DNA from: an uncultured Candidatus Thioglobus sp.
GTDB lineage: Bacteria; Pseudomonadota; Gammaproteobacteria; PS1; Pseudothioglobaceae
DNA length: 38,970 nucleotides
NCBI GenBank assembly: GCA_905614365.1
Contig: CAJQSO010000042.1
Span: 1-38,970, forward strand
Direction of reading: 5' to 3'
Under the pieces are notes generated by a model, which was given only the letters and a program-made list of their open reading frames with translations, did no database searches and was not told the origin of the DNA. Below, piece after piece: positions 5,406 to 35,972 of the stretch (positions within the stretch are counted from its first letter, which is position 1; each line of letters starts with the position of its first letter). The translations under genes were made by a program, and so were the position numbers.

Positions 5406-5975
5406 TTAACTGCCTTTAACATGAGACAAGATTTCTTTCATATCCTTCTTATTTTCAAAGATTTCTTCTTCTGAGAGTCCATCCATCTCATGTGGAAAGA
5501 CTAACCAGTCATCAGTCTCGTGAATATAGTAATCTGGCACAGTATCTATTATATTTCTTAAGGGCTTATACCAAGGCATAGCCATACGAATATCATGCGG
5601 TATATTTTTTCTAGATTTGTCATTTAGTGTGTCTAAGATCGCTTTAATACTTCTGCCTGAGTCAAAGACATCATCCACAATAAGAAGCTTATCTTCAGAG
5701 TTCATATGACTGACTAGATAGTCGATACCATGAACCCTAACCTCTTTTGATTGTTTATCAATGCCGTAGTATGATGAAGTTCGAATTGCAATATGATCAG
5801 ACTCATTACCTAAATATGCAAGAATCTCTTGTATGGCTATTCCAACTGGTGTTCCACCTCGCCAAACTCCAACAATAAAGTCGGGTTTAAAGCCACTATT
5901 ATGTATTTGCACCCCTAACCTAAAAGAGTCAAGAAGAAGCTCATCAGCTGTGATATATGTTTTTGATATAGACAT
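5406..5975 (-). CDS. Purine-type phosphoribosyltransferase (Gpt/Hpt-like)
   Basis: Cytoplasmic type I phosphoribosyltransferase, 189 residues, expected to join a free purine base to PRPP. The PRPP-binding motif LLIVDDVFDSGRS is at about residues 97-109, with the two adjacent acidic residues D101-D102. A pyrophosphate loop GVWRGGTPVG lies at 36-45, and a late WLVFPHE motif resembles the base-binding region of xanthine/hypoxanthine enzymes. It is the last gene of the minus-strand nucleoside operon, 117 nt beyond add, which supports a purine-salvage role for part of the base pool. Substrate choice (hypoxanthine, guanine or xanthine) cannot be settled. No Shine-Dalgarno is evident before the ATG; the upstream gap may hold its own promoter. 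Confidence 0.8.
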   Translation of the reverse strand: MSISKTYITADELLLDSFRLGVQIHNSGFKPDFIVGVWRGGTPVGIAIQEILAYLGNESDHIAIRTSSYYGIDKQSKEVRVHGIDYLVSHMNSEDKLLIVDDVFDSGRSIKAILDTLNDKSRKNIPHDIRMAMPWYKPLRNIIDTVPDYYIHETDDWLVFPHEMDGLSEEEIFENKKDMKEILSHVKGS

Positions 5976-6092
5976 TTTTTTAATTAATTGTTATTTTAAT
6001 AATGTGAACTAGATAGTTTTAAAGCATCTTTCTTATTTGAAATTTTATAGAGGTTTCGTCATTTATATTTATAAAATTCTAATTATTCTTAA

Positions 6093-7094
6093 TTAAAACT
6101 GTGAAATTTTACTAAGAAGGTGTAACTTTGTCTCAGAGTCTGCAAAAGAAGACTTAATAGCCATTGTTGAGATAGACTTAAGGCTCTCAATTTCAAAGTC
6201 AAGATGATCAGCACAATCTTGGTATTCTTGACCAACGCTAGTATGAAAAAATGGTGGATCATCTGAATTAAGGCTTACATTTATCCCTTTAGATATAATG
6301 AGTTTGAGCGGGTGACTCTCCCAGCTAGGATATATCGATAGAGCTAGATTACTTCCAGGACAAATCTCTAAGGCTATATTGCGATCTTTTAGCGTATCCA
6401 ATAAATGGTCATCTTCCACGCTTCTAACTCCATGGCCAATTCTACTAACTGGTAAGTAATTTATGGCATCCCAAACACTTTCTGGGCCGCATATTTCGCC
6501 GGCATGAACTGTACAAGGATAGTTAGCTTTTGCTGCAATATTATAAGTAGGAGCAAAATCAATTAACTTGAATGCATTTTCATCACCGCCCATACCAAAC
6601 CCAACAACATAAGGGTGAGGGTTATCAACCATTTTTTGAGCAACAACAGTGCCTTTTTGAGGCCCTAAATGCCGGACACAAGTTACAATGATTCGCCCAA
6701 TAATACCAAAATCTAACTGCGCATCATCTATTCCTTTTGCGCAGCCTTTAATTAAGTCATTATAACCAATACCACAATCACTAGCGTGATCAGGGGATAT
6801 AAAGGTTTCAGCATATATTACATTTTGTGATGCGCAGTCTTTAAGATATTCATACATAATATCTCTGTAATCTTTAGCATTTTTAAGACATGAGCTTACT
6901 GAGTCATAGGCATTAAGAAAGCTTGGAAAGTCAGTCCATGCATAACCACCATCTTTATCAAAAATATTTTCATCAAAATCAACGTTATTACGTTTGGCAA
7001 TTTCATGAAATAATTTAGGCTTAATAGTTCCCTCTAAATGGCTGTGAAGTTCAACTTTGGGCAGCTTTTGAATTTGATCTTGCATTTTAATCAA
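6093..7094 (-). CDS. add: Adenosine deaminase
   Basis: Cytoplasmic zinc hydrolase converting (deoxy)adenosine to (deoxy)inosine, 333 residues. Metal ligands and catalytic residues are all visible: HSH at 17-19, HAGE at 197-200 (zinc His and proton-relay Glu), His221 in IGHGVR, and Asp278-Asp279 in NSDDPPFF. Two starts are possible: a TTG at 7094 that overlaps the deoB stop by 4 nt, and an ATG at 7085 three codons later. Product inosine is the natural substrate of the PunA enzyme encoded in the same operon. A second member of this family, 34959-35972, looks like an adenine deaminase instead. Confidence 0.9.
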   Translation of the reverse strand: MIKMQDQIQKLPKVELHSHLEGTIKPKLFHEIAKRNNVDFDENIFDKDGGYAWTDFPSFLNAYDSVSSCLKNAKDYRDIMYEYLKDCASQNVIYAETFISPDHASDCGIGYNDLIKGCAKGIDDAQLDFGIIGRIIVTCVRHLGPQKGTVVAQKMVDNPHPYVVGFGMGGDENAFKLIDFAPTYNIAAKANYPCTVHAGEICGPESVWDAINYLPVSRIGHGVRSVEDDHLLDTLKDRNIALEICPGSNLALSIYPSWESHPLKLIISKGINVSLNSDDPPFFHTSVGQEYQDCADHLDFEIESLKSISTMAIKSSFADSETKLHLLSKISQF

Positions 7095-8305
7095 CTTAAG
7101 TTACAAGCTTTTCCATGAAGTAAAGGCTTTATTTCAAGATGCTGAGCAATAGTTTGCCCCATATCACAGAAACTTTCTCGCTCACCTAAGTTATTGTTCT
7201 TTATTGATTTTCCATAAAAAACAACTGGAACATGTTCGCGGGTGTGGTCATTACCAGGCCATGTAGGGTCGCAGCCATGATCCGCTGTTATTAGCACTAA
7301 ATCATTACTTGTTAGTTGCGCCTCAATTTCAGGTATTCGGGCATCAAATTGCTCAAGTGCTAGAGCGTAGCCTGCAACATCACGTCGATGACCAAACTTG
7401 GTATCAAAGTCAACTAGATTTACAAAGATTAGCCCTTCATTAACTTTCTTCATTTCAGATAATAATTGATCAACCAGGCCCATGTTATTAGGTGCCTTTA
7501 CAGTATAGCTGACTCCTTGATTGGAAAAAATATCTCCAATTTTTCCAACTGAAATGACATCTCCACCCCCATCTTGAATATTGTCTAATAGCGTTGGGCC
7601 ATTGGGAGGTGTGGTAAGGTCTTTACGATTAGCTGTGCGTTCAAAGCCATCTTTAGAATTTCCAGTAAATGGTCTTGCGATTACTCTTGTAATTTCTAGT
7701 GGGTCAACTAAGCATTTTGCAATAGTACATAATTCATAGAGCCTATCTAATCCAAAATGCTCTTCATGGGCAGCAATTTGAAATACTGAGTCAGCCGAGG
7801 TATAACAAATAGGAAATCCACTATTTATATGCTCTTGACCAAACTCTTGAATTACTTGAGTACCTGATGCATGTTTGTTTGCAAGTGTTCCACCTATTTT
7901 GCCCTCACTTATAAGACTAAGAAGGAGTGATTCAGGAAAGCAGTTTTCAGTTTTTGGAAAAGTTCCCCATTCAAAAGGAACTGGCAGACCACAAATTTCC
8001 CAATGACCACTTGGAGTATCCTTACCTGCACTAACTTCTTTCGCATAACCAAAAGCGCCCTGAGGCTCAACTCGGGTAATTGGTAGTGTTTTTTTACGGC
8101 TTGCAATTGCAGCCTCTCCCAAGCCCCATCGAATCAAATTGGGAATAAGTAGGGGGCCATTTCGCTCAGAATTATTAGCATTATTAGAATCACAAGACTC
8201 AATAATATGACCTAAAGTGTCCGACCCTGTATCACCATAAAGATGAGAGTCCTCAGTTGAGCCTAAACCTAAAGAATCTAAAACTAAAATAATTGATCTT
8301 TTCAT
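7091..8305 (-). CDS. deoB: Phosphopentomutase DeoB
   Basis: Interconverts (deoxy)ribose-1-phosphate and the 5-phosphate, linking nucleoside phosphorolysis to DeoC and to pentose metabolism. It has 404 residues, the usual length for this alkaline-phosphatase-superfamily enzyme. The N-terminal metal site begins with LVLDSLGLG (Asp10). The KDTPSGHWE motif at 95-103 holds the threonine expected to carry the active-site phosphate (Thr97), and the C-terminal metal site reads ITADHGCDPT with the downstream H-x-x-x-H of NDHTREHVP. An AGAAGG Shine-Dalgarno precedes the ATG. It lies 9 nt after deoA and overlaps add. Confidence 0.95.
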   Translation of the reverse strand: MKRSIILVLDSLGLGSTEDSHLYGDTGSDTLGHIIESCDSNNANNSERNGPLLIPNLIRWGLGEAAIASRKKTLPITRVEPQGAFGYAKEVSAGKDTPSGHWEICGLPVPFEWGTFPKTENCFPESLLLSLISEGKIGGTLANKHASGTQVIQEFGQEHINSGFPICYTSADSVFQIAAHEEHFGLDRLYELCTIAKCLVDPLEITRVIARPFTGNSKDGFERTANRKDLTTPPNGPTLLDNIQDGGGDVISVGKIGDIFSNQGVSYTVKAPNNMGLVDQLLSEMKKVNEGLIFVNLVDFDTKFGHRRDVAGYALALEQFDARIPEIEAQLTSNDLVLITADHGCDPTWPGNDHTREHVPVVFYGKSIKNNNLGERESFCDMGQTIAQHLEIKPLLHGKACNLS

Positions 8306-8314
8306 ATATACCTT

Positions 8315-34884: not shown

Positions 34885-34909
34885 TAAAAGTTTATTAAGT
34901 AATATTTCT

Positions 34910-34947
34910 AATCGCGCCCTAGGTTCTACTTAGGGCGCGATTTTTTT
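34910..34947 (+). terminator. Intrinsic terminator after the purine binding-protein gene
   Basis: A 12-bp GC-rich perfect stem with core TCGCGCCCTA (34910-34921 with 34931-34942, 9-nt loop) runs into seven T. It starts 26 nt after the binding-protein stop codon and ends just before the adenine deaminase-like gene, which therefore depends on readthrough or an unseen promoter. Confidence 0.9.
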
Positions 34948-34958
34948 ATAAAAAAATT

Positions 34959-35972
34959 ATGTCTGAGATTTCATACAACTGGTTAAAAGAACTTCCAAAA
35001 ATTGAACTTCATCTTCATATAGAAGGGACATTGGAGCCAGAATTATTATTTAAGCTGGCTAAGAGAAATTCAGCCCAATTGCCTTTTAATAGTATCGATG
35101 AGGTAAAAAAAGCATATCAATTCTCAAACCTACAAGATTTCCTAGATATCTATTATCAGGGTGCTGAGGTTTTACTCCTTAAACAAGATTTTTATGATCT
35201 GACATGGGCTTACTTGTTGATGTGTAAGGAGCAAAACGTAATACACGTTGAGCCATTTTTTGACCCTCAAACGCATACCTCTAGAGGCGTACCTTTTGAG
35301 ACTGTAGTAAATGGTATTTCAGAGGCTCTTGTTGATGCTAAAGAAAAACTTGGAATAACCTCTAGATTGATTATGTGCTTCCTAAGACACCTTAGTGAGG
35401 AAAGTGCAATTGAAACTTTAAAATCTTCAAAACAATTTAGTGATGTTATTTATGGTGTTGGTCTAGATAGTGCAGAAATGGGAAATCCACCTGAGAAATT
35501 TGTAAATGTTTTCAATCAAGCAAAAGATATGGGTTATAAATTAGTCGCCCATGCAGGAGAGGAGGGTCCAGCTAGTTATATATGGAGCTCTTTAGATGTT
35601 TTAAATGTTCAAAGAATTGATCATGGGATCAGAGCGATCGATGATCCTGACCTTATGCTTCGTTTAATTGAAACACAAATGCCTTTAACTATCTGCCCAC
35701 TATCGAATGTAAAGCTTAGAGTTTTTGATAATATGGCAAGTCATACAATACTTGATATGCTTGACCTTGGCGTTTGTGTAACTGTTAACTCAGATGACCC
35801 TTCTTACTTTGGAGGATATATGACAGAAAATTTCCTTGCACTTTATGACAGTCTTGGACTTACAAAAGACCAAGCAACTAGGCTTGTTAAAAACAGTATT
35901 GATGCAAGTTTTGCGAAGGAGAGTCGCAAGAAAGAGCTTTATAACTTATTACAAACGTATATTTCTGATTAG
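34959..35972 (+). CDS. Adenine deaminase-like (adenosine deaminase family)
   Basis: Zinc deaminase of the Add superfamily, 337 residues. Metal and catalytic residues are present: HLH at 18-20, HAGEEGP with His198 and Glu201, DHG with His222, and Asp279-Asp280. [12 protein letters not shown] (about 170-181) and [11 protein letters not shown] (246-256) match the branch shown in Pseudomonas and yeast to act on adenine rather than adenosine. That would yield hypoxanthine for XdhAB and complete the purine operon's coverage. The start is only 12 nt after the terminator's T-run, with no Shine-Dalgarno. Substrate is inferred from branch motifs and context. Confidence 0.8.

Follow-up and report, generated by a model that had tools for sequence, protein, structure and literature searches.

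The enterobacterial deo operon combines deoxyribose-phosphate aldolase (DeoC), thymidine phosphorylase (DeoA), phosphopentomutase (DeoB) and a nucleoside phosphorylase, and in E. coli acetaldehyde is handled by AdhE. SPU microcompartment loci likewise bring together a DeoC-type aldolase and an aldehyde dehydrogenase (ALDH) for the breakdown of the DNA sugar (passages of PMC4207490). For purines, operons of SAR11 and SAR116 encode a PuuD-type urate oxidase, xanthine dehydrogenase (XDH), UraH, UraD, PuuE, allantoicase and ureidoglycolate lyase, have glyoxylate and urea as products, and occur without urease in many SAR11 (main text of Braakman 2025, PMC11698098). Here we analysed a stretch of 38,970 nucleotides, referred to as the window, from an uncultured Candidatus Thioglobus sp. 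It represents contig 42 of a 1.14-Mb genome with an estimated completeness of 75%. Positions 5406-35972 share all of these purine enzymes, as well as the deo functions, and we interpret them, with a probability of about 0.78, as a chromosomal island with which a marine bacterium of the SUP05 clade breaks down dissolved nucleosides and purines. A preliminary description of this DNA had considered the complete assembly with paired importers to be the noteworthy part. The full purine route was already published for ocean bacteria.

Families were assigned from the list of open reading frames together with NCBIfam/TIGRFAM and Pfam profile scans, while structural relatives were obtained by sequence comparison with the PDB. 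Gene content and order, conservation, catalytic and pocket residues, and family matches present or absent elsewhere in the genome are direct observations. The island comprises two divergent operons, and every enzyme class named in the preliminary description was found at the location given there; the double aldehyde dehydrogenase of the nucleoside operon was not named in it. On the minus strand, the nucleoside operon extends from the gene of a PnrA-like binding protein (19101) to a phosphoribosyltransferase-like gene (5406). On the plus strand, the purine operon extends from puuE (19514) to the gene of an ADA-family deaminase (35972). The divergent junction between the two measures 412 bp. Intergenic gaps are mostly -11 to +20 bp, with exceptions of 117, 148, 96, 73 and 74 bp.

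From these data we infer substrates, fluxes, the substrate of ALDH16, the release of urea and regulation. Nucleosides would be taken up by the first ABC importer, which consists of two permeases and a double ATPase (14303-17927, minus strand like all genes of this operon; PF02653 twice, ABC_tran in two stretches) and a BMP/PnrA-like substrate-binding protein of predicted nucleoside type (18076-19101; PF02608). They would then be deaminated by adenosine deaminase (Add, 6093-7094; TIGR01430) and cytidine deaminase (Cdd, 13908-14300; TIGR01354), and cleaved by purine-nucleoside phosphorylase (PNP, 13105-13908; NF006054) and DeoA (8315-9652; TIGR02643), all four over cut-off. Through DeoB (7091-8305; TIGR01696 over cut-off) and a 351-aa long-form DeoC (12029-13084; TIGR00126 over cut-off, KTSTG motif), (deoxy)ribose 1-phosphate would enter central metabolism, with DeoC yielding glyceraldehyde 3-phosphate and acetaldehyde. 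The latter would be converted to acetate by ALDH16, a 787-aa protein in which a catalytic aldehyde dehydrogenase is fused to a second ALDH-like domain (9656-12019; full-length match to PDB 6mvr), and acetate would be activated by Acs.

The purine operon, entirely on the plus strand, would begin its work with a second ABC importer, composed of a double ATPase and two permeases (30224-33725; ABC_tran, PF02653 twice) and a purine-base substrate-binding protein of the AtzT/3s99 type (purS, 33799-34884; 3s99 and AtzT matches). This system would supply adenine, guanine or related bases to a predicted adenine deaminase of the ADA family (adeC, 34959-35972; 3ou8/3pan and 3rys matches) and to guanine deaminase (23658-24971; TIGR02967 over cut-off). 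XdhA and XdhB with the accessory protein XdhC (25326-30227; TIGR02963, TIGR02965 and TIGR02964 over cut-off) would follow, then the membrane-type urate oxidase PuuD (22483-23658), whose Urate_ox_N domain scores 363 bits (PF06181, over cut-off) and whose C-terminal cytochrome c motif CVSCH is present, with a weak match to cytochrome family PF13442 under cut-off. The allantoin pathway would be completed by hydroxyisourate hydrolase UraH (24982-25326; TIGR02962), OHCU decarboxylase UraD (20453-20974; TIGR03164), allantoinase PuuE (19514-20440; TIGR03212) and allantoicase (20964-21962; TIGR02961), all over cut-off, and by ureidoglycolate lyase (21965-22486; PF04115 over and NCBIfam models under cut-off), to give glyoxylate and two ureas. 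Malate synthase would join glyoxylate with acetyl-CoA, and urea would probably remain unused. The route was earlier called complete, which holds for purines down to glyoxylate and urea and does not hold for pyrimidine bases: for uracil and thymine, left by Cdd and DeoA, no degradation gene is among the island's family matches.

Residues 1-786 of the window ALDH16 align to residues 2-766 of Loktanella ALDH16 (PDB 6mvr, 889 bits), a full-length homologue, and both tandem ALDH-like domains are present in each. The catalytic residues N169, K192, E266 and C301 of domain 1 are conserved without exception in 71 full-length sequences, that of the window included. We sought ALDH16 loci in named genomes with an alignment of the C-terminal half, without using deoC, and took the best 80 of at least 579 relatives; nine were cut on the 5' side, which left 71 testable loci. 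In 67 of these 71, deoC lies directly upstream on the same strand (gap median 24 bp, maximum 293 bp). The record titles of the 67 loci, some of them perhaps misbinned (L051), cover six phylum-level groups, namely Pseudomonadota, Bacteroidota, Gemmatimonadota, Verrucomicrobiota, Chloroflexota and SAR324. Three loci (L047, L048 and L050) have their genes arranged as in the island of the window and are therefore not independent of it.

The pair also recurs on plasmids. Of 72,556 plasmid records, 155 match deoC (E<=1e-60) and 155 match ALDH16 (E<=1e-30), 78 being Sinorhizobium; the two sets, which need not consist of the same records throughout, have equal counts for the ten leading genera and equal mobility totals. 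Among the records listed for both genes, deoC and ALDH16 were adjacent on the same strand in 32 of 32 that were matched, with 2300-2426 nt from the end of deoC to the end of ALDH16, many of these records being strains of few species. In all six annotated plasmid regions examined, deoC was directly upstream of ALDH16. As controls, none of the five other ALDHs of the window genome has deoC within 1.5 kb, and no ALDH match was found beside short-form gammaproteobacterial deoC at 22 loci (flanks up to 1.5 kb per side, shorter at contig ends).

Among 232 genomes of the class, DeoC scores were high only for the window (776 bits) and for one other genome, G106 (266 bits), with the next at 136 bits. 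These same two were the genomes with ALDH16 among 370 of the class, a count that may be low, as the search scored the two best candidates per genome. Two other genera of the family, represented by four genomes (G119, G226, G311 and G378), gave no ALDH16 match. Long-form DeoC seems to pair with ALDH16. The window DeoC carries an N-terminal extension of nearly 80 residues, and DeoCs of the PDB align with it only from about residue 77.

As the deoC neighbourhood is near-constant, the acetaldehyde released by DeoC is most simply read as the substrate of ALDH16, and gene neighbourhood makes the bacterial enzyme the probable acetaldehyde dehydrogenase of this pathway. Several points count against this assignment. 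Choosing the 80 loci by their similarity to the window favoured near relatives; no deoC was found at three of the 71 loci (L065, L089 and L120, with Chloroflexota/Chloroflexi-group titles); and at one (Kaistella) deoC lies 2.5 kb from ALDH16. In favour of the assignment, an acylating acetaldehyde dehydrogenase as a rival acetaldehyde sink was set aside, the MhpF type being over cut-off in 0 of 26 genomes, although the AdhE and PduP types were not searched. ALDH16 might instead act on another aldehyde and adjoin deoC merely because both belong to sugar operons, and several loci do also hold rbsK, RbsD/FucU or sugar ABC genes. We regard this as unlikely, since deoC alone among the window's genes is a near-constant neighbour: in the 67 loci deoA occurs in 17, deoB in 15, pnp in 14 and a generic ABC ATPase match in at most 24. 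Furthermore, plasmids carry the pair as well, and another phylum has it with the ALDH16 halves in separate stretches. One alphaproteobacterial locus (L056) has deoC/ALDH16 with homologues of puuD, guaD and adeC nearby, possibly an independent nucleoside-purine island.

The separate stretches occur in Nonomuraea (L206, 6001-9299). There, two stretches behind deoC, lying in different frames, correspond to the two halves of ALDH16. G106 (L040) also has both halves behind deoC, here in a single frame and split by a TAG stop. Because separate halves follow deoC in both cases, the data weakly suggest an origin of ALDH16 by fusion of two deoC-linked genes. Extending this, we lean with modest confidence towards an ALDH16 that arose by fusion and is dedicated, across many phyla, to the acetaldehyde of the long-form DeoC pathway, in which case animal ALDH16A1 could derive from a nucleoside-degrading enzyme and act in connection with DERA, the animal homologue of DeoC. 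Passages of PMC8160307 list animal ALDH16A1 with gout and describe human ALDH16 as lacking the catalytic Cys. No earlier report of ALDH16 as a DeoC-pathway enzyme was found in the literature searched, which mostly excluded subscription journals, and the passages of PMC6365646 and PMC9007349 on the topic name no ALDH for the acetaldehyde of DeoC.

What becomes of the products was assessed in 17 genomes of the genus with family cut-offs. Acs was over cut-off in 14 of the 17, the window's included, and malate synthase in 12, again with the window genome among them. Isocitrate lyase matches are present as well, and a malate synthase working solely on purine glyoxylate is therefore not supported. 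Urease alpha and urea carboxylase were over cut-off in none of the 17, and urease is lacking also in G006, which is 99% complete in one contig of 1,714,148 bp; we take partial matches under cut-off, judged by score and coverage, to be other amidohydrolases and biotin enzymes. Consequently, the ring nitrogen is probably released as urea, and each purine would probably yield reducing power and one each of glyoxylate and ammonia, along with two ureas that go unused. The preliminary description had proposed a source of both carbon and nitrogen. Of the two, carbon and energy are the likelier, while the case for nitrogen is weak, with ammonia coming only from the deaminases. That the island serves chiefly for nitrogen and only secondarily for carbon would agree with nitrogen-rich purines and with four deaminases in the island. 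We nevertheless consider it rather improbable, because, with neither urea-degrading enzyme over cut-off in any of the 17 genomes, no more than the exocyclic amino group seems to be recoverable, because malate synthase and Acs fit carbon use, and because many SAR11 purine users also lack urease (PMC11698098, main text).

The two importers, put forward earlier as a pair, are indeed both BMP-type ABC systems, but they are not equivalent. The closest PDB relatives of the first binding protein are 7x0r (Lbp, 150 bits), 2fqw (TmpC, 128 bits) and 6yab (lipoprotein), compared with 68 bits for AtzT and 62 for 3s99; TmpC/PnrA is presumably a binder of purine nucleosides. The second scores 410 bits against 3s99 and 332 against AtzT, and no more than 51 against other BMP entries. 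Its pocket comprises W45, S96, F97, E165, W194, H218 and D220. Of the seven AtzT pocket positions S, F, E and W are kept, whereas AtzT has Y, N and N where the window protein and 3s99 have W, H and D (Y45->W, N218->H and N220->D); for this mapping a chain numbering offset of 5 was inferred, upon which all seven AtzT residues match the stated type. The window protein shares its family and most pocket residues with AtzT and 3s99. According to passages of PMC6834077, AtzT came with guanine on purification and binds this base at 0.11 uM and adenine at 2.5 uM; for thymine, cytosine and uracil the values are 620 uM or weaker, and adenine was modelled in the 3s99 structure. Since the closest relatives of the two binding proteins differ and the second has pocket residues of purine-base binders, import is probably split, with nucleosides for the left operon and purine bases for the right. 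That both systems carry nucleosides and are redundant would accord with their common BMP family, but it is very unlikely given the scores of the second protein and the binding of guanine and adenine by AtzT. Nucleoside transporters are highly expressed in Pseudothioglobus-affiliated metagenome-assembled genomes (MAGs), as stated in passages of PMC9123188.

The deaminase at 34959-35972 is predicted to act on adenine. It scores 464 bits against 3ou8/3pan (PA0148) and 354 bits against 3rys, both of which we take to be adenine deaminases, and at most 115 bits against other ADA entries. A redundant adenosine deaminase was considered and is unlikely, despite the name given by NCBIfam. The island can accordingly be called non-redundant, as had been proposed, only if the two ADA-family proteins divide adenosine and adenine between them; NCBIfam names both adenosine deaminase.

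Synteny was examined by tblastn of the window proteins against stretches from 17 congeners. Gene order is kept wherever contigs reach, at about 55-100% protein identity, with one genome (G022) rearranged, which bears out the conserved synteny to be expected of a real unit and indicates that the genes are not clustered by chance. All 11 congeners whose contigs span the divergent junction retain it, G022 among them being rearranged further on. At contig G022:C160 the order is inverted and a truncated deoC lies beside ALDH16, probably through assembly, otherwise as a true rearrangement; the genome was retained in the tallies. Several congeners are fragmented, and for G003, G004 and G015 the contig examined carried the nucleoside half alone; their genomes gave no PuuD match. 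Among 24 congeners, 13 have both ALDH16 and PuuD, four ALDH16 only, one PuuD only and six neither (Fisher p=0.009). The two halves are hence associated in their occurrence, as co-inheritance would require, although linkage combined with MAG incompleteness would give the same result. That the two operons are unrelated neighbours at a chance junction is hard to credit, for although an ALDH16-bearing nucleoside module without a puuE match in the DNA examined exists at L060 (Sneathiella) and at L049 and L062 (titled gammaproteobacterial), the junction recurs in 11 congeners, and in eight of these a single regulator gene and palindromes separate the two operons.

For the island as a whole, some observations pull the other way. 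The six congeners without either marker include G001 (99% complete) and G020 (94%). For the importer subunits other than the binding proteins, the top NCBIfam models are 'putative B6 ABC transporter', all under cut-off, which also counts against the proposed split of import. NCBIfam model NF006850, over cut-off, labels the predicted adenine deaminase an adenosine deaminase. Finally, because the window genome is only 75% complete, absences from it are soft.

In eight of the 11 spanning congeners, a gene of 226-227 aa stands just before puuE. The two of these eight proteins that were scanned combine a GntR DNA-binding and an FCD domain (PF00392 and PF07729 over cut-off). No regulator gene was found in the window's island. 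In the junctions of G002 and G009 the first and last codons of the regulator gene are joined, and the window has a decayed form of the same deletion, a remnant of the first and last few codons at 19459-19505 (plus strand, limits approximate). The junction of G006 carries a different deletion that left only a 3' remnant. Because regulator-bearing genomes separate the window clade from G006 in a tree of concatenated proteins, two independent losses are the simplest account: the regulator appears to have been lost twice, in the window clade and in G006, with both operons kept. Gene gain or exchange may have occurred instead. Searching 26 genomes (E<=1e-8) gave matches in five and no other copy in G000, G002, G006 or G009; G003, G004, G015 and G016 were likewise without a match. 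In G007 a regulator match lies on another contig.

All eight regulator-bearing junctions contain a perfect ATTGTNNACAAT, a palindrome that we take to resemble a GntR-type operator, and seven of them a second site with at most one mismatch 13 bp further on. In the four junctions without the gene (window, G002, G006 and G009), ATTGTNNACAAT is perfect in G002 and G009, has one mismatch in G006 and two in the window (19399-19410, from the junction alignment), and the second site is kept in none. When three junctions were shuffled in blocks of two, a perfect copy arose in 0.1-0.5% of cases; the real junctions are related and so not independent. Across the whole window, with one mismatch allowed, four sites were found against 3.57 expected. 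As this count is at chance level, only the junction sites carry weight. A sigma-70-like promoter candidate for the nucleoside operon (19251-19279, minus strand) matches 11 of 12 positions and is weak evidence on its own, with seven such sites found against 5.3 expected in shuffles. Taken together, the comparison of junctions supports one shared control region for both operons, and we infer that this junction formerly governed the island, a control from which the window's lineage has been freed.

Further features lie at the edges of the island. The protein encoded at 5406-5975 (minus strand; Pfam PF00156) is phosphoribosyltransferase-like, most likely a purine phosphoribosyltransferase (PRT). 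Its top PDB match is the purine PRT 1vdm (53 bits), and its top NCBIfam match is far under cut-off. With 85-96% identity in congeners where seen, it is conserved yet fits curated families poorly, and it possibly serves purine salvage. On the left the island is flanked by an oligopeptide-type ABC system, and on the right by tatC/tatB and a sugar-type binding protein; in G010 and G012 tatC/tatB do not lie between adeC and the latter. adeC is missing after purS in G007, G008 and G011, with a distant guaD-like match (25% identity) at this place in G008. At the right end of the island in G006 (C1), two adjacent purS matches of 71% and 90% identity were observed, possibly indicating a second base-binding protein. 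The window contains no tRNA and no Rfam match at the gathering threshold, and the ideas of a tRNA-linked island and of a riboswitch were dropped.

If the reading is correct, marine bacteria of the SUP05 clade join the scavengers of nucleosides and purines, probably releasing urea, and the apparently repeated loss of the regulator at a conserved junction would offer a clean natural example of small ocean genomes shedding the regulation of a pathway that stays intact. Compared with the enterobacterial deo operon, the island adds an importer, deaminases and ALDH16. In the SPU loci the aldehyde dehydrogenase is proposed to make acetyl-CoA within a shell (passages of PMC4207490), whereas the family matches of the island hold no shell gene. 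In contrast to the SAR11 and SAR116 operons, the purine operon of the window stands head-to-head with a full nucleoside/deoxyribose operon, together with two BMP importers and in a SUP05-clade host; the main text of PMC11698098 mentions neither thioglobus, SUP05, aldehyde, deoxyribose nor deoC. The head-to-head nucleoside-plus-purine island with its base importer is thus a variant of known purine operons. The link between ALDH16 and deoC, predicted from gene neighbourhood, is the result of greatest value. For Loktanella ALDH16 the review passages (PMC8160307) give no physiological role, nor was one found stated in the literature searched, and with the link to deoC reported here this enzyme of solved structure gains a testable physiological substrate.

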